Source of the DNA: Verrucomicrobiia bacterium
GTDB taxonomy: Bacteria > Verrucomicrobiota > Verrucomicrobiia > Limisphaerales > JAEYXS01
Reading direction: 5' to 3'
Length of the DNA stretch: 64,000 nt
NCBI GenBank assembly: GCA_036405135.1
Contig: DASWYF010000020.1
Coordinates: 124,001-188,000 of the forward strand
Shown: positions 14,269 to 25,097 of the stretch, one piece after another
Layout: each line of letters opens with the position of its first letter
How positions within the stretch are numbered: the stretch's first letter is position 1
Made by a program: the position numbers and the translations under genes
Notes under the pieces: generated by a model
Database searches by the model: none
The model's input: only the letters and a program-made list of their open reading frames with translations
Told to the model about the DNA's origin: nothing

Positions 14269-14790
14269 ATGACTACGCTTATTCCTAAAAAGGTGGCTGC
14301 TGCCATTTACAAGCAGATCGGCTTGGAATTCTTTGCCTCGATGCAGTATGAGGCGATCTCGGCCTGGTTCAAACAACAAGGGTTGCCGCGGCTATCGGCG
14401 CATTTCGCCCAGCAGGCGAGCGAGGAGCGGGCGCACGCGCACCGCTTCATGAAATATGTGGTGGATACGGGCACGCCGCTGGCGTTGCCGGCCATCGATG
14501 CGCCGAAGTGCGAATTCAAATCCGCTGAAGAAGCGGCGCAGGTGGCCTTGGAACACGAGATCAAGGTGACGGATTCCATCAAGGCGTTGTTCGATCTCGC
14601 GGAAAAGGAGGGCGATCGCTTCACACAGACATCTTTGCAATGGTTCATCAACGAGCAGTTGGAGGAGGTCTCTTCTGCGGATGAACTGCTCCAGATGATC
14701 CGCCGCGCTGGTGATGGCGGGTTGTTGCTGGTGGAGTATTTCCTCGGTGGTGGCGGAACAGGCGGCGGAGCCCCCAAGGGTGGCGAGTGA
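14269..14790 (+). CDS. ftnA: Bacterial non-haem ferritin
   Basis: A 173-residue four-helix-bundle ferritin. Counting from ATG 14269, Glu20, Glu53 and His56 (SEERAHAHRF), Glu97 (ALEHEIKV), Glu129, Gln130 and Glu133 (FINEQLEEV) match the ferroxidase and third-iron-site ligands of FtnA. It oxidises Fe(II) and stores Fe(III) as a 24-mer in the cytoplasm. The start is chosen at MTTLIPKK, with GGAG about ten bases upstream; the longer ORF adds an unrelated N-terminus. The C-terminus has a glycine-rich tail (GGGGTGGGAPKGG). A terminator follows, then the siderophore receptors, so storage and uptake are side by side. Confidence 0.95.
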   Translation: MTTLIPKKVAAAIYKQIGLEFFASMQYEAISAWFKQQGLPRLSAHFAQQASEERAHAHRFMKYVVDTGTPLALPAIDAPKCEFKSAEEAAQVALEHEIKVTDSIKALFDLAEKEGDRFTQTSLQWFINEQLEEVSSADELLQMIRRAGDGGLLLVEYFLGGGGTGGGAPKGGE

Positions 14791-14815: not shown

Positions 14816-14847
14816 CCCGCAGCGTGAAAGTGCTGCGGGCTTTTATT
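14816..14847 (+). terminator. Rho-independent terminator of the ferritin gene
   Basis: An 8-bp GC-rich stem, CCCGCAGC (14816-14823) with GCTGCGGG (14832-14839), has an 8-base loop and is followed by CTTTTATTTTTT. It lies 25 bases past the ferritin stop. Confidence 0.85.
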
Positions 14848-15064
14848 TTTTGATGAGAATGAAAATAGATGAAAAATATTTCAATCACCCGCTGAAGATG
14901 CTTCCAGATCTGGTTTCTTGAAAACTTAACACGAATAGAACACCTGATTTTATTGGTTAAAAATGATTTCAATGGGAGGATTGCGTCTGTGATTCCGAAT
15001 TTCCTGTTTCGCAATCTTACAATAGAAAATAGCAAGTGAACGAAAGCGGAGGCTTTTCGAATTA

Positions 15065-15070
15065 TATAAT
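15065..15070 (+). promoter_or_regulatory. Putative -10 box for the first TonB-receptor leader
   Basis: A perfect TATAAT sits 12 bases before the conserved leader helix, so transcription would begin a few bases ahead of it. No good -35 hexamer is present at 16-18 bases upstream. At the second leader a weaker TACTTT (17562-17567) lies at nearly the same distance (11 bases). Confidence 0.45.
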
Positions 15071-15082
15071 TTGCGCACCGTT

Positions 15083-15176
15083 GTCCGGTCGTCACCGGAG
15101 AAAGTTGAGGCCCGGTTGGACTCAAATTTCATAAGGCATCTGTGTGGCGGCCGGGCGACGTGACTTTATTATATAC
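15083..15176 (+). promoter_or_regulatory. Conserved structured leader RNA, copy A (riboswitch-like)
   Basis: A 13-bp closing helix forms between 15083-15095 (GTCCGGTCGTCAC) and 15144-15156 (GTGGCGGCCGGGC). Inside are CGGAGAAA (15096-15103), a hairpin with stem TTGAG/CTCAA (15105-15109 with 15121-15125), and TTTCATAAGGCATC (15127-15140). GTGACTTTA (15160-15168) follows the helix, nine bases before the ATG. The same plan recurs at 17579-17668 with compensatory base-pair changes. No Shine-Dalgarno stands at the normal place before the ATG; CGGAGAAA inside the structure is the best match. I do not recognise it as a named riboswitch; a ligand or regulator tied to iron or siderophores is inference. 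Confidence 0.75.
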
Positions 15177-17450
15177 ATGAAGAAATACGAGCAGACGCAG
15201 CAGGGGGTTGAAACAAATCCGGAAAGTCTAAGAAAACCGTCCATCGCCACGCTGGCATTGGTGAATGTCATCATGCTGGCGGGTGCTGGCGCCGCGCAGG
15301 CGCAGACGAATACGCCACCAGCAGTGGCCGGTTCGTCCACGAATGCGCCGACGAAACTGCCGGACGTGGTGATCACTGGCGAGAAGACGAAGGATGAGAC
15401 GGCTTATAAGCCGGAACAGGTTGCTAACCCGAAGTACACGACACCGCTGGTGGATACTGCGCAAACAATCACTGTGATCCCCAAGGCGGTCATCGAGCAG
15501 CAAGGTGCGACGACCTTGAGCGAAATCATGCGCAACATCCCGGGTGTGACGATGCTGGCAGGAGAGGGAGGTGGTGCTTCGAGCAGCGCAGGTGACACGT
15601 TCTTCATGCGCGGTTTTGATGCGAGCAATAACATCTTCGTAGATGGTGTGCGCAACCAGGGTCTGATCACGCGTGATGCCTTCAATCTTGAAGCGGTGGA
15701 AGTTTTCAAAGGCCCTACGGGCAGTGATACTGGCCGCGGCAATGGTTCTGGTTACGTAAATATCGTTACGAAGTCGCCCGCGTTGGAACCTTTCTATCGT
15801 GCCAGCCTGGGATACAACTCGGCCGACAACACCCGTTTCACAGCGGATGTGAACCAGCCGTTGCAACTCGGCGAGAAAGACACCTGGCTGGGCGGTTCGG
15901 CGTTACGCCTGAACGGATTGGTGCAGGGTGGCGGCGTGGCGGGCCGTGACTACGTGGAGCGCAATAGTTGGGGCATCTCGCCATCATTGGCATTGGGATT
16001 GGGTACGCCAACGCGTGTGGTATTCACCTCCACATATACCGAGCAGGACAACATTCCTGATTACGGTCTGCCAACAGCGACTTTGAATGGCAATAGTGGC
16101 ATCGATCGCGAGAACTATTATGGCAACGTGCTCTATGACTTTGAAGAAGTCAGCCAGTTCAGCGCAGGTGGCCGCATCGAGCATGATCTCTCGGACAGCT
16201 TTACGTTGCGCAATAACACCGTCTACACGGAGACGCACCGTTTGGCGGTGATCACGGGGTTGGGCAATATCAATGCTGCGGGTCAGGTCGCGCGTATGCG
16301 ACAGGCAAACGAGCGGTACAACAAGATTTTCTCAAATCAGACGAGCGGCACCATCAAGTTTGACACAGGCCCGCTGGAACATGCCGTGGTGACGGGGTTG
16401 GAATACACTTGGGAAGAGCAATACACCCCCACGGTGATTGGTGCCGGTACCGCGGCAGTTACTCCGTTTGACGGATACAACCCCGATCCATACTACGATG
16501 TTACCGGCTATGGCCCGGTGCGGAACGGCGCTTACAGCAGGGGCTCTACGGACACGGTGGCGCTGTATCTGTTTGATACGATCGATATCGGTGAACGCTG
16601 GCAGGTGAATGGTGGCGTGCGTTGGGAGCATTATGCGACGCACTTCACTTCCGTGGATGCAACCCAGGCAGTGACCGCCGATCTGGGCGCGGATGGACAC
16701 ATTCTCAGCAGCAAGGCGGGCTTGCTCTTCAAGCCGGCCTCCAATGGCAGCACGTACTTCGGTTTCGGTCGCACAATGACGCCTCCGGGCAGTGCGAACT
16801 TCAACCTCAGTGGTGCGGCGGGCAATGTGAACAATGCCAGCACGGATCCGCAGATCGCCGACAACTTCGAACTCGGCACGAAGTGGGAATTCTTCAAGGA
16901 ACGCCTGGCGGTCAATGCTTCGGTGTTCCGGACGATCAATCACAATATTCTGACGCCGGATCCGTTGAATGTTGGTTCCTTCATTTACGACAGTCGCGAG
17001 CAGATCGTGAATGGTGTGGAATGGGGTGTGGCGGGACGCATCACGGATGAGTGGCAGGTCTTTGCCAACTGGTCCTACCTCAACACGGAGTTCTCTGACC
17101 CGGCCAATGCAGCCAACGGTGCGGCCATCCAATGGACGCCTGAGTTCTCGATGAGTTTGTGGACAACGTATCGTCTGCCTTTCGGCCTCACGCTGGGTGG
17201 TGGTGCGCGCTATGTGAGCACCATCGCCCGTCAGACGACCAATACTCCGGGTGCGAATATGCCGGAAGCGCCGGATTATTGGGTCTTCGATGCCATGCTG
17301 CAGTATGACATCACGAAGAACATCAATGTGCGCCTGAACATCTACAACCTGGCTGACGAGCTGTATTCCAGCAGCTTGAACAACAACGGCGGGCGGTTCA
17401 ATCCGGGCACACCGCGGTCAGCCTACCTGACGGCCAACTTCAGCTTCTAA
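15177..17450 (+). CDS. TonB-dependent siderophore receptor (Fiu/CirA-like), copy 1
   Basis: A 757-residue outer-membrane receptor. After a basic N-terminus comes a signal region ending LAGAGAAQAQ, then a TonB-box-like stretch ([19 protein letters not shown]), the plug domain (TQTITVIP-like strand, GATTLSEIMRNIPGV, FFMRGFDASNNIFVDGVR, EVFKGPTGSDTGRG, GSGYVNIVTKSP) and a 22-strand-type barrel ending in a terminal Phe (YLTANFSF). Such receptors import Fe(III)-siderophores using TonB-ExbBD energy. ATG 15177 follows the structured leader; the longer ORF would translate the leader's 3' helix strand. Gene order with a PiuC-like dioxygenase suggests catecholate-type substrates, by inference. Confidence 0.92.
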   Translation: MKKYEQTQQGVETNPESLRKPSIATLALVNVIMLAGAGAAQAQTNTPPAVAGSSTNAPTKLPDVVITGEKTKDETAYKPEQVANPKYTTPLVDTAQTITVIPKAVIEQQGATTLSEIMRNIPGVTMLAGEGGGASSSAGDTFFMRGFDASNNIFVDGVRNQGLITRDAFNLEAVEVFKGPTGSDTGRGNGSGYVNIVTKSPALEPFYRASLGYNSADNTRFTADVNQPLQLGEKDTWLGGSALRLNGLVQGGGVAGRDYVERNSWGISPSLALGLGTPTRVVFTSTYTEQDNIPDYGLPTATLNGNSGIDRENYYGNVLYDFEEVSQFSAGGRIEHDLSDSFTLRNNTVYTETHRLAVITGLGNINAAGQVARMRQANERYNKIFSNQTSGTIKFDTGPLEHAVVTGLEYTWEEQYTPTVIGAGTAAVTPFDGYNPDPYYDVTGYGPVRNGAYSRGSTDTVALYLFDTIDIGERWQVNGGVRWEHYATHFTSVDATQAVTADLGADGHILSSKAGLLFKPASNGSTYFGFGRTMTPPGSANFNLSGAAGNVNNASTDPQIADNFELGTKWEFFKERLAVNASVFRTINHNILTPDPLNVGSFIYDSREQIVNGVEWGVAGRITDEWQVFANWSYLNTEFSDPANAANGAAIQWTPEFSMSLWTTYRLPFGLTLGGGARYVSTIARQTTNTPGANMPEAPDYWVFDAMLQYDITKNINVRLNIYNLADELYSSSLNNNGGRFNPGTPRSAYLTANFSF

Positions 17451-17473
17451 GCTGGATAGGCAAAAACTACCTG

Positions 17474-17517
17474 TCGGCGGCTTGCACTCGCCCAAAACGA
17501 GGTACGCAAGCCGCCGA
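17474..17517 (+). terminator. Strong hairpin between the two receptor genes
   Basis: TCGGCGGCTTGC (17474-17485) is perfectly complementary to GCAAGCCGCCGA (17506-17517): a 12-bp stem with a 20-base loop, 23 bases past the receptor stop. The sequence after it is A-rich, not T-rich, so it may be an RNA 3' end or attenuator rather than a classical intrinsic terminator. Confidence 0.5.
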
Positions 17518-17578
17518 TAGAAAAACGCAAGCCACCGCAAGCGCGGGATTTACCGGTTCTCTACTTTATGAATCCTTG

Positions 17579-17668
17579 GCCCGACAGCCGTCGGAGAAAT
17601 TTGAGCCCTGTAGGCTCCGGTTTCATAAGGCATCCGCACGGCTGTCGGGCTGTAGTGACTTTAATAAA
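17579..17668 (+). promoter_or_regulatory. Conserved structured leader RNA, copy B (riboswitch-like)
   Basis: GCCCGACAGCCGT (17579-17591) pairs perfectly with ACGGCTGTCGGGC (17638-17650). The interior repeats copy A: CGGAGAAA (17592-17599), a hairpin GAGCC/GGCTC (17603-17607 with 17613-17617) and TTTCATAAGGCATC (17621-17634). GTGACTTTA follows at 17655-17663 and the ATG at 17669. Relative to copy A, helix pairs 6, 8, 12 and 13 differ on both sides but still pair, and pairs 2, 7 and 10 exchange G-U for G-C. The hairpin segment differs by two bases in length, so a conserved leader peptide does not explain the match. Confidence 0.75.
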
Positions 17669-19907: not shown

Positions 19908-20591
19908 ATGTTAATCAGCATTCCAGATGTATTGACGCCGCAGCAAGTGGCTGAGGCACGGCAGATCCTTGAGAGCGCCGAGTGGGTGGATGGCAAGGTG
20001 ACGGCGGGTTATCAATCCGCTCGCGCCAAGGACAACAGGCAGATCCCGGAGGGGCATCCGGCGGCGCGGCAGGTGGGTGAGATGATCGTGAACGCGTTGA
20101 GCAAGAATCCGCTGTTCATCACCGCGGCCTTGCCTTTGCGCATCTTCCCGCCGCTGTTCAACCGCTACACCGGTGGTCAATCATTTGGAACGCACGTGGA
20201 TAATGCGATCCGGCAGGTGCCGGGCACGGGCCATCGCATCCGCACGGACCTGTCGGCCACATTGTTCTTCGCCGGACCGGAAGAGTATGATGGCGGCGAG
20301 TTGTGCGTGGAAGACACGTATGGTGTGAAGAAGGTGAAGCTGCCGCCCGGACACATGATCTTGTATCCGGCGACGAGCTTGCATCACGTCACGCCCGTGA
20401 CGCGGGGTGCGCGTCTGTGCTCGTTCTTCTGGTTGCAGAGCATGATCCGCGATGACACCCAGCGCTCGCTGTTGTTCGACTTGGACATGGCAATCCAGCG
20501 TCTGAATGCGGATGTGCCGAATCACCCATCCACCGTGAGCCTTACGGGCGTGTATCACAACCTGCTCCGCCAATGGGCGGAAATGGGCTAA
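19908..20591 (+). CDS. Fe(II)/2-oxoglutarate dioxygenase, PKHD-type (PiuC/YbiX-like)
   Basis: A 227-residue protein of the PKHD-type hydroxylase family found beside Fiu/PiuA receptors. The iron ligands are His96 and Asp98 (GTHVDNA) and His159 ([11 protein letters not shown]), with Arg169 placed to bind 2-oxoglutarate. Supporting motifs are FNRYTGG near residue 85 and DGGELCVED. The family is thought to use oxygen and 2-oxoglutarate on a compound or protein linked to iron uptake, but the substrate is not established. The gene follows receptor 2 by seven bases and is likely in its operon. Confidence 0.92.
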
Positions 20592-20609
20592 CTCATTGTT
20601 ATTTGTCGT

Positions 20610-21269
20610 ATGAAACAATCTCTCTTCGCTTCATTGCGTGCGTTAGTGCTGGCCGCCGGTCTGACTGGTGCCATCACGGCGCAGGCGCATAATATCTGGT
20701 TGGAAGACCTGCCGAACGGCGAGGTGGGATTCCGCTTCGGTGAGATCGGAGAGAAGGTGGAGACATCACCGGGACGTCTCGATGCGTTCACCAGCCTGCA
20801 AGGTTGGACGGTGGCTACGAATCAGTTCAAGCTGGAGAAAAAGAGCGATCACATCCTGCTGCAAGGCAGCAAAGCATCCGCTCCGGTACTCGCGGAAGAA
20901 GCGGGCATGCCGGTGCGTGCGGTGCAGAATCCGCGTAAGACGATGTTTTACGCACGCTGGCAACCGGCTAAATCCGAAGCAGGTGAAGCGGCGCTGACGC
21001 TGGACATCGTGCCGACGGGTAAGGCGGGCGAATACAAAGTGACGTTCCGTGGTCAGCCACTCGCAGAGGCCAAGATCAAGGTGGAGGGAGATAAAGGTTT
21101 TACGGCGGATCTGACCAGCAATGCTGAAGGCAAGGTGACTTTCAAGGCACCGTCCAAGGGATTGTTTTTGCTGGTCTGTGTTCATCGCGAGACGTTGGCG
21201 GGCTTTGCCGGGGGCAAGGCATTTGAGGGCCTGACGCACAGCTCCACCCTTTCCTTCCGCCAGCCATGA
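20610..21269 (+). CDS. Periplasmic DUF4198-like protein
   Basis: A 219-residue protein with a signal peptide (ALVLAAGLTGAITAQA) and a mature N-terminus AHNIWLED, the hallmark opening of DUF4198-type proteins, where the early His is a candidate metal ligand. A beta-rich domain follows (GFRFGEIGEKVETSPG, MFYARWQP), then an immunoglobulin-like C-terminal domain (GQPLAEAKIKVEGDKG... NAEGKVTFKAPSKGLF). Relatives sit beside TonB receptors and PepSY proteins in metal-uptake loci. Its stop overlaps the next ATG by four bases. A periplasmic metal- or siderophore-handling role is inference. Confidence 0.75.
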   Translation: MKQSLFASLRALVLAAGLTGAITAQAHNIWLEDLPNGEVGFRFGEIGEKVETSPGRLDAFTSLQGWTVATNQFKLEKKSDHILLQGSKASAPVLAEEAGMPVRAVQNPRKTMFYARWQPAKSEAGEAALTLDIVPTGKAGEYKVTFRGQPLAEAKIKVEGDKGFTADLTSNAEGKVTFKAPSKGLFLLVCVHRETLAGFAGGKAFEGLTHSSTLSFRQP

Positions 21270-23005
21270 AGCAGAAGTTCCGCAAAGCACTTTTCTGGGT
21301 TCACCTGGTCATCGGCCTCGTCGCCGGTGGCGTGATCGCGATCACGGTTTTCACGGGTGCTTCCATGGCGTTCGAGAAGCAGGTGATCGCGTGGGTGGAG
21401 CGGGATGTACGCAAGGTGAAGCCGCCGACGGCGGATGCACCGCGCCTGACGCTGGATGAGTTGGGCAAGAAATTGCGTGAGGCACAGCCGGAGGCGCGTC
21501 CGGCGAGCATTGTGGTCTCTGCCGATCCGACGGAGCCAGTGATCTACAGCATGGGCCGGACGAACACGGTTTACCTGAATCCTTACACCGGCGAAATCCA
21601 GCAGCCGGGTGCGAAGAAGACGCGTGAGTTCTTCGCGCTGATGCTGCGTTGGCATCGGTGGTTGGGTGTGAACACGCCTCCGGGCCAAGGTCCGGGAGGT
21701 TCTGGTGGAATGGGAACGAATGCGGTGGCAAGTGCACAAGGCGGTTCTAATACTGTAGCAACTGCTGCGACTGCTTCTACGAATGCCGTAGCGGCGGCAC
21801 CGGCTGGTGGTCCCGGAGGGCCGGCTGGCGAACCTCGTCCAATGAGTGCGCGGGAGATGGCGGGCACGGTGGTGGGTATCTCCACGATCATCTTTGTGCT
21901 GTTGAGCATCACGGGTATTTACCTGTGGTGGCCGCGTCACTGGTCTTGGAAGAGTTTGAAGGCGGTCTCGGTGGTTAGCTTCAAGCTCAAAGGCAAGCCG
22001 CGTGACTGGAACTGGCACAATGCGATGGGGCTGTGGTCTGCACCGGTCATCGTGATCATGGGTTTCACGGGCATCGTGATGGCGTTCCATGATGTGGGTG
22101 ACTGGATTTATAAGCGACCGGAAGGCGATGCAGCGAAGGCTTTGATTCCAACGGTGCCGACACCGGCTCCGGGAACGCGTCCGGCGAATCATGATGTATT
22201 GCTCGCTGCCGCGCAGAAGGAAGTGCCGGGCTGGGAAACGATCACGTTGCGCCTTTCCAATCCGCGTCAGCGCGGTGGTGGCGGTGGAATGCAACGTCCG
22301 CAAGGTGGTGCTCCGGGTGCAGCGGTGGCGGGCACGACGGTTGAGGCGAACAGCACGAATGCGGTGGTGGCGTCTGCGGAAGAGAGACCTCGCGGTGAAG
22401 GCAAGCGTGAGGGTGGTCGCCGCAAGCGCGAAGGTGGCAATGCAGAGGTGGCGCAGAATGCAGAAGGTTCTACGAATGCAGCTCCGGCTGTGGCCGCAGC
22501 GACGGCGTCTACCGGTGGTGAAGCGCGTGAAGGTCGTGGCGAACGTGGTGGTGAGCGCGCCAAGGGCATGGGCGGTGAAGGTCGCGGTGGGGCTGGTGGT
22601 ATGGCTGCCGCTGCGCCGCAACCGATCAATATGACGGTGAAGACAGAGGCGTGGATGCCGTTGCCTTACCAGCTTCAGCTTGATCCGTTCACGGGGGATG
22701 TGTTGCGGAAAGAGAGCTTGTCCGATTACGGGGTGCGTCGCGGTTTCCGCACGTTGAACCGCACGTTGCACACAGGCGAGGCGTTCGGGTTGCCCGGACA
22801 GGCGATCGCGCTCTTTGCCTGCATCGGTGGCATGGTGCTAGTTTACACGGGTTTTGCGCTTTCCTTCCGCCGCTTCCGTAACTGGCGGAATCGCAAGCAT
22901 GATCTGGCCGCCAAGCCGGAAGAGAAGTCCGCTGAAGCCGAGAAACGCGCTATCGCGCAGCCGGAACCGGAAGTGATGGCGGTGCCTCGCACGGCCACAG
23001 AATAG
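21266..23005 (+). CDS. PepSY-associated transmembrane protein (PiuB-like)
   Basis: A 579-residue inner-membrane protein with four main hydrophobic segments: FWVHLVIGLVAGGVIAITVFTG at the start, GTVVGISTIIFVLLSITGIYLWW mid-protein, WSAPVIVIMGFTGIVMAF, and ALFACIGGMVLVYTGFALSF near the end. PepSY-type periplasmic regions with HRWLGVNTPP and LHTGEAFGLPGQ match the PiuB/siderophore-reductase-like family, which may reduce or release iron from siderophores. Conserved histidines in WNWHNAMGLW and LHTGEAF could bind haem. It carries two low-complexity inserts (about residues 141-193 and 335-452) rich in Gly, Arg, Glu and Ala, unusual for the family. Confidence 0.82.
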   Translation: MKQKFRKALFWVHLVIGLVAGGVIAITVFTGASMAFEKQVIAWVERDVRKVKPPTADAPRLTLDELGKKLREAQPEARPASIVVSADPTEPVIYSMGRTNTVYLNPYTGEIQQPGAKKTREFFALMLRWHRWLGVNTPPGQGPGGSGGMGTNAVASAQGGSNTVATAATASTNAVAAAPAGGPGGPAGEPRPMSAREMAGTVVGISTIIFVLLSITGIYLWWPRHWSWKSLKAVSVVSFKLKGKPRDWNWHNAMGLWSAPVIVIMGFTGIVMAFHDVGDWIYKRPEGDAAKALIPTVPTPAPGTRPANHDVLLAAAQKEVPGWETITLRLSNPRQRGGGGGMQRPQGGAPGAAVAGTTVEANSTNAVVASAEERPRGEGKREGGRRKREGGNAEVAQNAEGSTNAAPAVAAATASTGGEAREGRGERGGERAKGMGGEGRGGAGGMAAAAPQPINMTVKTEAWMPLPYQLQLDPFTGDVLRKESLSDYGVRRGFRTLNRTLHTGEAFGLPGQAIALFACIGGMVLVYTGFALSFRRFRNWRNRKHDLAAKPEEKSAEAEKRAIAQPEPEVMAVPRTATE

Positions 23006-23041
23006 ACGGTTTAAACAGCCCAATCGTAACAGAAAGAGGGC

Positions 23042-23072
23042 TTGACCAGATTTATTTGAGATTTAGTCTCAA
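23042..23072 (+). promoter_or_regulatory. Putative promoter with overlapping inverted repeat before tonB
   Basis: TTGACC (23042-23047), a 16-base spacer and TAGTCT (23064-23069) form a plausible sigma-70-type promoter. The inverted repeat TTGAGA-TTTAG-TCTCAA (23056-23072) covers the -10 region, a natural place for an operator. A second small palindrome, ACTGCT-CTT-AGCAGT (23075-23089), ends at the base before the ATG. It does not match a canonical Fur box. Confidence 0.4.
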
Positions 23073-23089
23073 GAACTGCTCTTAGCAGT

Positions 23090-23914
23090 ATGGTGACCAC
23101 GCAAGAACCAGCTAAATTGATCGTGAAGGTGCCTCCGGCATCGCTGGAACGTTGCGCCTTGGGGGAAGCGTGCCCGACGCGGTTGACGTGTGAGCTGGCG
23201 CGGCAATGTCTTCCGCAGGACAAGCCGGACCCGAATGTGAAGTATGCTTGGGCGAACGCGATCTGTGTGCTGTTCATCCTCATCGGGCTGTATGGTTTGA
23301 AGTCGCCGTTGTTCATCTTGCCAGCGGAAGCGAAAGCGGAAGAGGTGGTGGTGCCGGTGTTGTTCATGCCGCCGCCTCCGAGCATGCAATCGCAGTCGCT
23401 GGCTCCGGCAAGCGAGAGTGCGCCTGCGCCAGACAGCATTGCGGAACCGATGGAGATGCCGGAAGTGGCTCCTGCGGTGGCTCCCGAAAATGCGAATGTG
23501 GCGTTTGCCGTGCCGGTGGAAGGACCTGTGCGCGTGGTGGCAGCACAGTATGCAGCGGCACCGCCGGTGATCCGTAAAGTGGTGGCACCTCCGCCGCCGG
23601 GACCGACGGGTAATGGCACGGGTGGAACGGGGGATGCGGTGGAGTTCAGTCCGGGTGGCGGGGATGGCGGAAAATATCCCCAGCCGACATATCCTGCACT
23701 GGCTTTGAGCCGTGGCTATCAAGGTGTGACGGTGTTGGAGATCGTGGTCGATCGCACCGGTTTTCCTTCATCCATTTCAGTGCGTGACAGTTCTGGCTGG
23801 GATATTCTGGATGACGAAGCCGCTTACACTGTGAAGCGCAAGTGGCGCTGGCCAGCCGGGCCGCAACGTCATTATCTGGTGCCTTTTAAATTCCAAATCA
23901 ACCAGAAGAAATAG
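23090..23914 (+). CDS. tonB: TonB-type energy transducer with cysteine-ladder N-terminus
   Basis: A 274-residue protein with a cytoplasmic N-terminal tail of about 50 residues, one membrane segment (NAICVLFILIGLYGL), a Pro/Ala-rich periplasmic spacer (about residues 85-185) and a TonB C-terminal domain: YPALALSRGYQGVTVLEIVV, FPSSISVRDSSGW and VKRKWRWPAG. It couples the proton-motive force to outer-membrane receptors through ExbB-ExbD, the next two genes. Odd feature: the cytoplasmic tail has cysteines 22, 28, 34 and 40, exactly six residues apart, not seen in classical TonB. They might hold a metal or iron-sulfur cluster, which is inference. Confidence 0.88.
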   Translation: MVTTQEPAKLIVKVPPASLERCALGEACPTRLTCELARQCLPQDKPDPNVKYAWANAICVLFILIGLYGLKSPLFILPAEAKAEEVVVPVLFMPPPPSMQSQSLAPASESAPAPDSIAEPMEMPEVAPAVAPENANVAFAVPVEGPVRVVAAQYAAAPPVIRKVVAPPPPGPTGNGTGGTGDAVEFSPGGGDGGKYPQPTYPALALSRGYQGVTVLEIVVDRTGFPSSISVRDSSGWDILDDEAAYTVKRKWRWPAGPQRHYLVPFKFQINQKK

Positions 23915-23950
23915 TCTTCGGCCAAGTCGTAACCGCACGTTTTATTACCC

Positions 23951-24652
23951 ATGCTCGCGAATACTGTCGTTGAATTGTTCATCAAGGGCGGCCCCATCAT
24001 GTGGCCGATCCTCATCGTTGTTCTGGTTGCCGTCGCGGTGGTCGGTGAGCGGATCATCTGGTGGAGCACGCTGGCGAAGAAGCGTGATGCGAAGCGGCTG
24101 GAGCAGGTGTTGACGGCGATCGAGGTGGGTGATTTCAACACAGCATCGAATCGCGCGAAGGATTCAGAAGACCCGGTGATCCGTATGATTTGGCATGGGT
24201 TGAACCATGTTCACTCTTCCATGCAGGGGGCGTTGCAGGTGGCGGCGGGTGTAGAACTGCAACGCGCGGGCCGTTTCATCATGGCGATGGATACGATCAT
24301 CACGCTGGCGCCGTTGCTTGGTTTGCTCGGCACGGTGACGGGCATCATGGCTTCATTCGATTCCATCGGCGGTTCTGAACTGGCCGTGGAGAAGGTGACG
24401 GGCGGTATCGGTGAGGCGCTCATCGCGACGGGTGCGGGCCTGGGCATCGCGATCTTTGTGCTGATCCCGTTCAATTATTTCACGGCGAAGGTCGCGCGCT
24501 TGCAGTTCGAGCTGGAGTCTGCGGCGACGAATGTCGAGGTGATGGTGCAGGCGGCGAAGCACAAGGAATCGGATGGCGGCACGTTCCGTGAGACGCCAGC
24601 TCCTCCTGCGCCCTCGATGATCAGCGCGCGCAAATCTACGACTACAGTTTGA
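23951..24652 (+). CDS. exbB: ExbB/TolQ/MotA-family proton-channel subunit
   Basis: A 233-residue membrane protein with three hydrophobic segments: IMWPILIVVLVAVAVVGERI, LAPLLGLLGTVTGIMASF and GLGIAIFVLIPFNYFTAKV. The LAPLLGLLGTVTGI and ALIATGAGLGIAI motifs are diagnostic for ExbB/TolQ. It forms the pentameric stator in which ExbD sits, powering TonB. The position between tonB and exbD supports ExbB rather than TolQ. Residues near 60-85 form the usual cytoplasmic helix. Confidence 0.93.
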   Translation: MLANTVVELFIKGGPIMWPILIVVLVAVAVVGERIIWWSTLAKKRDAKRLEQVLTAIEVGDFNTASNRAKDSEDPVIRMIWHGLNHVHSSMQGALQVAAGVELQRAGRFIMAMDTIITLAPLLGLLGTVTGIMASFDSIGGSELAVEKVTGGIGEALIATGAGLGIAIFVLIPFNYFTAKVARLQFELESAATNVEVMVQAAKHKESDGGTFRETPAPPAPSMISARKSTTTV

Positions 24653-24674
24653 TGGGGCTTCCTTCCAGACGCGC

Positions 24675-25097
24675 ATGAAAATCGGTTCTCCATTGCCACA
24701 CCGGAAAGCACGGATTGAGATCGTCCCGTTGATCGACATCATGTTCTTTCTGTTGGCGTCGTTCATGATGGTGAGTCTCACGATGGTGAAGTTGCAATCC
24801 ATCAAGATGGACCTGCCTACGGCCACGCAGGCGACGAAGGATTTCAAGCCGGACCTGGTGAACATCGCAGTGGACAAGCAAGGTGACATCTACATCGAGA
24901 AGGAGCGCAAGACGTTGGTGGAGATGCATGATTATCTGGTGAAACGGGTGGCGGAGAAGAAGGACATCCCGGTGTATATCAGCGGCGACAAGGCGGCGAG
25001 CCACGGGGCGGTGATCAATGTGTTGGACATGGTGCGCAGAGCGGGTGTGCAGAAGGTTTCCTTCGCCATCGCAGCCGCGAGCGAGGGGGAGAAGTAA
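24675..25097 (+). CDS. exbD: ExbD/TolR-family biopolymer transport protein
   Basis: A 140-residue protein: short basic cytoplasmic start, one membrane helix with the essential proton-carrying aspartate (Asp21 in VPLIDIMFFLLASFMM), and a periplasmic domain with DKQGDIYIEKER and the VYISGDKAASHGAVINVLDM strand-helix motif. It partners ExbB to energise TonB. The spacer to exbB is 22 bases and to the next gene three, so all are in one operon. Confidence 0.93.
   Translation: MKIGSPLPHRKARIEIVPLIDIMFFLLASFMMVSLTMVKLQSIKMDLPTATQATKDFKPDLVNIAVDKQGDIYIEKERKTLVEMHDYLVKRVAEKKDIPVYISGDKAASHGAVINVLDMVRRAGVQKVSFAIAAASEGEK

Follow-up and report, generated by a model that had tools for sequence, protein, structure and literature searches.

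A predicted genus-restricted leader RNA upstream of tandem siderophore-receptor genes in uncultivated Verrucomicrobiota

Genomic context of the receptor genes

The window, namely the whole stretch of DNA analyzed here (64,000 nt; contig DASWYF010000020.1, positions 124,001 to 188,000 of the forward strand, GCA_036405135.1), belongs to one genus of uncultivated Verrucomicrobiota, of which three genomes were compared: the source genome and two relatives, termed G001 and G002. It carries two TonB-dependent receptor genes in tandem, each with one copy of a leader element upstream (Table 1). A ferritin gene precedes the pair, whereas the genes that follow encode a PiuC-like PKHD hydroxylase, a DUF4198-like protein that scores just under the Pfam cut-off, a PepSY-TM protein, TonB, ExbB and ExbD. 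The contig of G001 has a similar set of neighbors, comprising ferritin, receptor, PiuC-like hydroxylase, PepSY protein, TonB, ExbB and ExbD, and the shorter contig of G002 contains the receptor, PiuC-like, PepSY and TonB genes. Judged from the Pfam assignments, the element heads a siderophore-uptake cluster, and the iron-uptake context that had been read from the downstream genes is solid. Two further features are seen in G001: an extra TonB receptor gene on the opposite strand, between ferritin and the element (L032 9631-11844 (+)), and a predicted ECF sigma factor/anti-sigma-like gene pair at the far end of the cluster (L032 398-2455 (+)).

Table 1. Features of the receptor locus and related sites (window positions unless a locus is named)
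Feature	Position	Strand	Evidence or remark
Ferritin gene, upstream	14269..14790	+	PF00210
Conserved upstream box AAATAGCAAGTGAACGAAAGCGG, possible operator or promoter part	15027..15049	+	cross-locus comparison
-10-like TATAAT, about 10 bases upstream of copy 1	15065..15070	+	sequence, alignment
Whole leader RNA element, copy 1	15080..15160	+	R1 match 98.5 bits; leader z -4.4
P1 5' arm, copy 1, ends in CGGA	15080..15099	+	pairs with 15139-15159; 7 of 20 pairs doubly changed in four sequences
Alternative hairpin hp5, copy 1 (CCGGU-CGUC-ACCGG), inside P1 5' arm	15085..15098	+	pairs in four of four copies; two of five pairs compensated
P2 hairpin, closing GAAA/UUUC invariant	15100..15130	+	folding, covariation, RNAalifold
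Invariant one-sided 8-nt bulge AUAAGGCA, copy 1, presumed recognition site	15131..15138	+	identical in four of four copies
P1 3' arm, copy 1	15139..15159	+	folding, covariation
TonB-dependent receptor 1, 757 aa	15177..17450	+	PF00593, PF07715
-10-like TACTTT upstream of copy 2, own promoter inferred	17562..17567	+	sequence, alignment
Whole leader RNA element, copy 2	17576..17654	+	R1 match 82.7 bits; leader z -6.2
Alternative hairpin hp5, copy 2 (CCGAC-AGCC-GUCGG)	17581..17594	+	nascent folds, pair check
Invariant bulge AUAAGGCA, copy 2	17625..17632	+	sequence identity
TonB-dependent receptor 2, 743 aa	17669..19900	+	PF00593, PF07715
Rest of uptake cluster (PiuC-like PKHD hydroxylase, DUF4198-like, PepSY-TM, TonB, ExbB, ExbD)	19908..25097	+	Pfam
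Further sites of the upstream box	L032 minus strand 12695 and 9473; L033 42 and 2541; L100 5758		
Further sites of the upstream box	L034 minus strand 8903; L098 13284; L064 1208		

Fold of the leader element

Each leader of ~80 nt folds into one long hairpin, which consists of a 20-bp helix P1, a hairpin P2 and an 8-nt bulge AUAAGGCA on the 3' side only. The bulge is placed between P2 and the 3' arm of P1, with no unpaired bases opposite. Helix P1 comprises 16 pairs in addition to a 4-bp CGGA/UCYG segment, split by one unpaired 3' base, and P2 harbors a conserved GAG/CUC. The same P1/bulge/P2 structure is recovered by RNAalifold, unprompted, from the four copies of the three genomes. The folding energies correspond to z-scores of -4.4 (copy 1), -6.2 (copy 2), and -7.1 and -6.0 (copies in the relatives), as calculated from 200 dinucleotide shuffles per copy, none of which folded as well for any of the four copies.

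The first-pass annotation of this DNA had reported conserved structured leaders upstream of both receptor genes, and these are present as described. Several details of its plan need revision. The helix given as 13 bp has in fact the 16-bp plus 4-bp composition above; two of the “three bases”, as well as the AUC end, belong to or border paired segments, and the truly unpaired part is the 8-nt AUAAGGCA. The covariation described for the hairpin (TTGAG/CTCAA versus GAGCC/GGCTC) came from a misalignment: both copies have the same GAG/CTC, and the differences are confined to the pairs on either side of it. Moreover, GTGACTTTA, counted as part of the plan, is common to the two window copies but absent from both relatives, and does not belong to the element.

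Covariation and an invariant core

In the four-copy alignment, 98.4% of the cells pair. Eight of the 31 pairs are altered on both sides with pairing kept, compared to a mean of 3.0 in shuffled alignments, and none of 500 shuffles reached eight. The covariation noticed earlier in the long helix of the two window copies held in this wider alignment, where it is real but thin, as the alignment is small (four sequences from three genomes). In a control with the partner shifted by 1-3 columns, pairing fell to 29-43% and the double changes to 0-1. Eleven G-U cells are found on the + strand, where the opposite strand would give A-C mismatches, indicating that the paired molecule is the sense RNA.

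All four copies have an identical core, GGAGAAA...UUUCAUAAGGCAUC. By comparison, four-fold degenerate sites of the neighboring genes are 44-58% identical over the same distances (74% in the short exbD), and the receptor proteins 64-74% identical; the element therefore stands out as an island of conservation among diverged flanking genes. As seen in these alignments, helix P1 varies under a pairing constraint, whereas the bulge AUAAGGCA is without any variation, and the element is, on this comparative evidence, under selection at the RNA level. The bulge presumably serves as the binding or recognition site. Two traits by which a structured leader is judged are found together: helices that covary on the coding strand, and a constant 5'-UTR place before related genes across species (four of four copies, at orthologous loci in three species). 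In the window, the 14-mer TTTCATAAGGCATC occurs exactly twice, and the next-best match has two mismatches.

Several other candidate explanations were rejected. A UUG frame after GGAG encodes MRPGWTQ(I/V)S-stop in copy 1 and both relatives, but in copy 2 the frame is shifted and the start lies in a helix. The 2-base length change that had been taken to rule out a shared leader peptide is real, and together with the resulting frame change it argues against a conserved peptide. An N-terminal extension of the receptor would find an open frame through some leaders, but copy 2 reads the conserved bases in different frames. An integron attC site was likewise discarded, as the terminal GTTRRRY/RYYYAAC boxes are absent from the sequence.

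An alternative 5' hairpin

Beyond what the earlier reading had described, an initial hairpin (hp5) can arise within the 5' arm of P1, to be displaced by the finished P1. Its general form is CCGGY-N4-RCCGG, with CCGGC-CGUC-GCCGG and CCGGC-AUCC-GCCGG in the two relatives. Pairing of hp5 is seen in all 20 cells, and two of its five pairs are compensated, a signal that is weak alone (28 of 500 shuffles score as high). Minimum-energy folds of the growing transcript place hp5 beside P2 at most lengths up to about 70 nt; beyond this length, the 3' arm emerges and the minimum-energy fold exchanges hp5 for P1. G001 has a C-A mismatch in place of one P1 pair, and the hp5 pair involving the same C is intact. 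The two states are mutually exclusive and conserved, and no terminator or ribosome-binding site (RBS) is coupled to their exchange. Altogether, these predicted folds suggest the anatomy expected of a co-transcriptional exchange, for which four sequences are too few for proof. With P1 complete, the RNA gains 10.6-14.7 kcal/mol in stability over the hp5 alternative, which makes switching at equilibrium unlikely.

Promoter-like sequences and the start region

The -10-like sequences upstream of the element align across the four copies, reading TATAAT in copy 1, CTACTTT in copy 2 and CTAGTTT in both relatives; a sigma-70 consensus scan did not report the -10-like sequence before the leader. If this sequence acts as a promoter, the mRNA would start near or at the base of P1. 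In all four copies, the element is situated between the promoter-like sequence and the ATG. The ferritin gene is followed by an intrinsic-terminator-like hairpin (14816-14839, terminator scan), which, along with the promoter-like sequence before each copy, is consistent with a transcript starting at the element. About 15-20 AU-rich bases separate the end of P1 from the ATG, and the start codon is unsequestered in the structural model. No Shine-Dalgarno sequence is present in P1 or between P1 and the ATG; the terminator scan found no terminator at the element, and there is no U-run downstream of P1.

Farther upstream of copy 1 lies a conserved 23-bp box (Table 1), and a second, weaker one is located upstream of copy 2 at 17522-17544. 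Boxes with a consensus of roughly AAATnGCAAnYGnnCGAAAGCGG are located ahead of receptor, ferritin, PiuC-like and TonB genes of iron-uptake loci across several families of the order. Genomes carry just 0-2 copies of the strict form, and four of nine hits lie in such loci. This box may be the operator of an iron regulator or part of a special promoter. In addition, the intergenic segment between receptor 1 and leader copy 2 contains a long inverted repeat, CTGTCGGCGGCTTGC...GCAAGCCGCCGATAG (17471-17521); the region around it (17455-17560) has a folding z-score of -4.4 and no U-run. In a further genome (G061:C67), CTCTAGTTTTTGCCCCACGCATG, about 20 bases upstream of the receptor start (L017, about 1460-1485), resembles the promoter sequence of the genus directly before the ATG. 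By this resemblance, the G061 receptor mRNA looks nearly leaderless, with the genus element falling exactly in the gap.

Distribution of the element

Within the source genome (5.8 Mb), the combined pattern occurs only at the two leader sites, and a reversed control gave none. G002 and G001 contain one copy each (C63:90-170 and C28:9345-9425, respectively), located directly before the orthologue of receptor 2. A covariance model built from the four copies (R1) found nothing further in 320 genomes of the order or in 387 sampled from the phylum, under strict filters that strongly diverged cousins would escape. No match emerged when 11 genomes containing receptor orthologues were scanned with higher sensitivity, or when the surroundings of the other TonB receptors in the three genus genomes were scanned with filters off. 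The leaders of the best receptor orthologues in other families matched neither the core nor R1. Scanning 84,980 species genomes for the exact core yielded nine stretches, which correspond to the two known relatives and seven sites without the flanking helix; viral contigs and plasmids gave none. Among the inspected loci with few-mismatch core matches in four genomes, only the true copies have the fold of the element. A leader hairpin in G115 has a z-score of -1.3, which is not significant.

Searching Rfam 15 gave no match in the window at the gathering score, and none over the leaders at E-values up to 10 (window) or 5 (relatives), in agreement with the first-pass statement that no named riboswitch is known to have these motifs. 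A few literature searches found no paper tying such an element to TonB genes in Verrucomicrobiota, nor a structured RNA of this kind in the phylum. The element is thus restricted to the genus and uncatalogued in Rfam: hits beyond the tandem pair exist as orthologues in two other species of the genus, and none further appeared among the genomes searched.

Origin of the tandem arrangement

Receptor 2 is the orthologue of the element-headed receptors of the relatives, with identities of 63% (G001) and 74% (G002). By contrast, receptor 1 shares 57% identity with a receptor from another family of the order, which is without the element (G070), versus 46-47% with the receptors of its own genus. These identities suggest either that receptor 1 is an acquisition or that an old paralogue came to lie behind the ancestral leader. 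Copy 1 is nearer to the leader of the relatives than copy 2, as indicated by the R1 scores (98.5 vs 82.7 bits) and by the alignment. In the simplest reading of these comparisons, receptor 1 would have been inserted downstream of the ancestral leader, with receptor 2 now served by a duplicate of that leader. The P1 pairs and P2 of copy 2 have changed since the duplication with the core kept, which lends independent support to a function of the element.

Proposed mechanism and alternative readings

Taking the sequence comparisons together, we propose that the element is a new genus-restricted cis-acting leader RNA, which probably controls translation or mRNA stability via a factor that binds the bulge. 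The siderophore-receptor messages would begin with a conserved folded RNA that probably sets the amount of receptor. The earlier label of a “riboswitch-like cis-acting RNA” stands in its cis-acting part, given the covariation, the invariant core, the + strand G-U pairs, the fixed place between promoter-like sequence and ATG and the lack of an Rfam match; the riboswitch part is putative, with no terminator, no hidden Shine-Dalgarno sequence and no nameable ligand.

As suggested by the sequence, the 5' arm would first fold as hp5 beside P2 during transcription, and the later 3' arm would displace hp5, forming P1 and completing the bulge site. A small protein, or a small molecule linked to iron or siderophores, may then read the bulge together with the GGA/UCY and GAAA/UUUC helices. 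Its binding would decide whether the very stable P1, with its end about 15-20 nt upstream of the ATG, impedes the ribosome or guards the 5' end from decay, with the likely outcome that receptor synthesis is matched to the iron supply. We give about an even chance to this post-transcriptional control by a trans-acting factor (protein or small molecule) that reads the bulge and the flanking short helices, with translation or mRNA stability as the output; transcription termination is an unlikely output.

A strict metabolite or metal riboswitch, in which the bulge, P1 and P2 form the aptamer for a small molecule and the hp5/P1 exchange is the switch, appears rather unlikely. It would account for the cis position upstream of transport genes, the compensated and mutually exclusive hp5, and the way in which conserved bases cluster in an asymmetric bulge flanked by two helices, as in the folE motif/THF-II (PMC6800512). 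However, there is no expression platform (no terminator at the element and no RBS in P1), the stability of P1 is too high for a switch at equilibrium and no ligand is identifiable. Occurrence in one genus only is also unlike most riboswitch classes, though THF-II is itself confined to one order.

The very stable helix with the predicted 5' end at its base, the absence of a platform and the AU-rich open start region could also reflect a constitutive 5'-end stabilizer or insulator that senses nothing, and either blocks 5'-dependent decay or keeps upstream RNA off the start region lacking a Shine-Dalgarno sequence. We consider this unlikely, as such a device would not require the 8-nt bulge and GGAGAAA/UUUC...AUC to stay invariant next to a long helix that is free to change. 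More doubtful still is an iron- or siderophore-sensing riboswitch of a new class, in which a ligand completing the AUAAGGCA pocket would decide the capture or displacement of nascent hp5 and P2, thereby setting the synthesis of TonB-dependent siderophore receptors directly at the RNA level in Verrucomicrobiota.

Two readings have very little probability. In the first, the palindromic P1 arms (CCGGY-N4-RCCGG), each 5' arm being itself a dyad in all four copies, would be operators of a dimeric repressor just downstream of the start site; yet the P1 pairs outside hp5 and the non-palindromic four-base arm centers covary between the arms, so that P1 is not reducible to two DNA palindromes, the G-U pairs favor + strand RNA, the one-base 3' bulge is kept and the invariant P2/bulge core would be superfluous. 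Equally improbable is a target or processing site, with the exposed 8-nt invariant single strand pairing to an sRNA or the long double-stranded RNA of the 20-bp helix being an RNase III substrate, since an sRNA seed leaves the invariant flanking helices unexplained, no sRNA was identified, the few-mismatch core matches inspected at other genomic sites are without the fold, and the bulge is dispensable for RNase III.

Comparison with known systems

Control of siderophore receptor genes is usually attributed to Fur or sigma factors. Sensing of iron status by the element, if it occurs, would represent a compact RNA-level control of these receptors. If the element is instead a leader bound by a protein, it would still be new, 80 nt long, equipped with a defined recognition site and amenable to experiment. 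Given its narrow range, it exemplifies a regulatory RNA of recent origin. Among riboswitches, the one known from a TonB-dependent receptor gene is the AdoCbl (B12) riboswitch of btuB, a larger multi-helix RNA. Both are 5'-UTR RNAs upstream of a TonB-dependent receptor gene, but the present leader has no Rfam match and its cluster is devoted to siderophores. The 5'-terminal stem-loops of the Escherichia coli ompA type stabilize mRNA and need no invariant bulge sequence. Like them, the leader forms a stable hairpin where the mRNA of an outer-membrane protein is predicted to start; unlike them, it combines an invariant bulge and core with a covarying helix.

In the THF-II/folE motif, P1 and P2 are coaxial, most of the conserved bases lie in an asymmetric bulge, and the distribution is limited to one bacterial order (PMC6800512, PMC9881143). 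It is a short 5'-UTR element before one gene type, folE, with the RBS in the right arm of P1 (PMC6800512, PMC9881143). The present leader differs in its conserved bases, in a P1 without an RBS or Shine-Dalgarno sequence and in the siderophore receptors instead of folE downstream; membership in THF-II is opposed by the lack of a Shine-Dalgarno sequence in the P1 3' arm and of an Rfam THF-II match over the leaders. Nevertheless, the two share a similar architecture, in which P1, an asymmetric bulge holding the conserved bases and P2 are combined with a narrow phylogenetic range.
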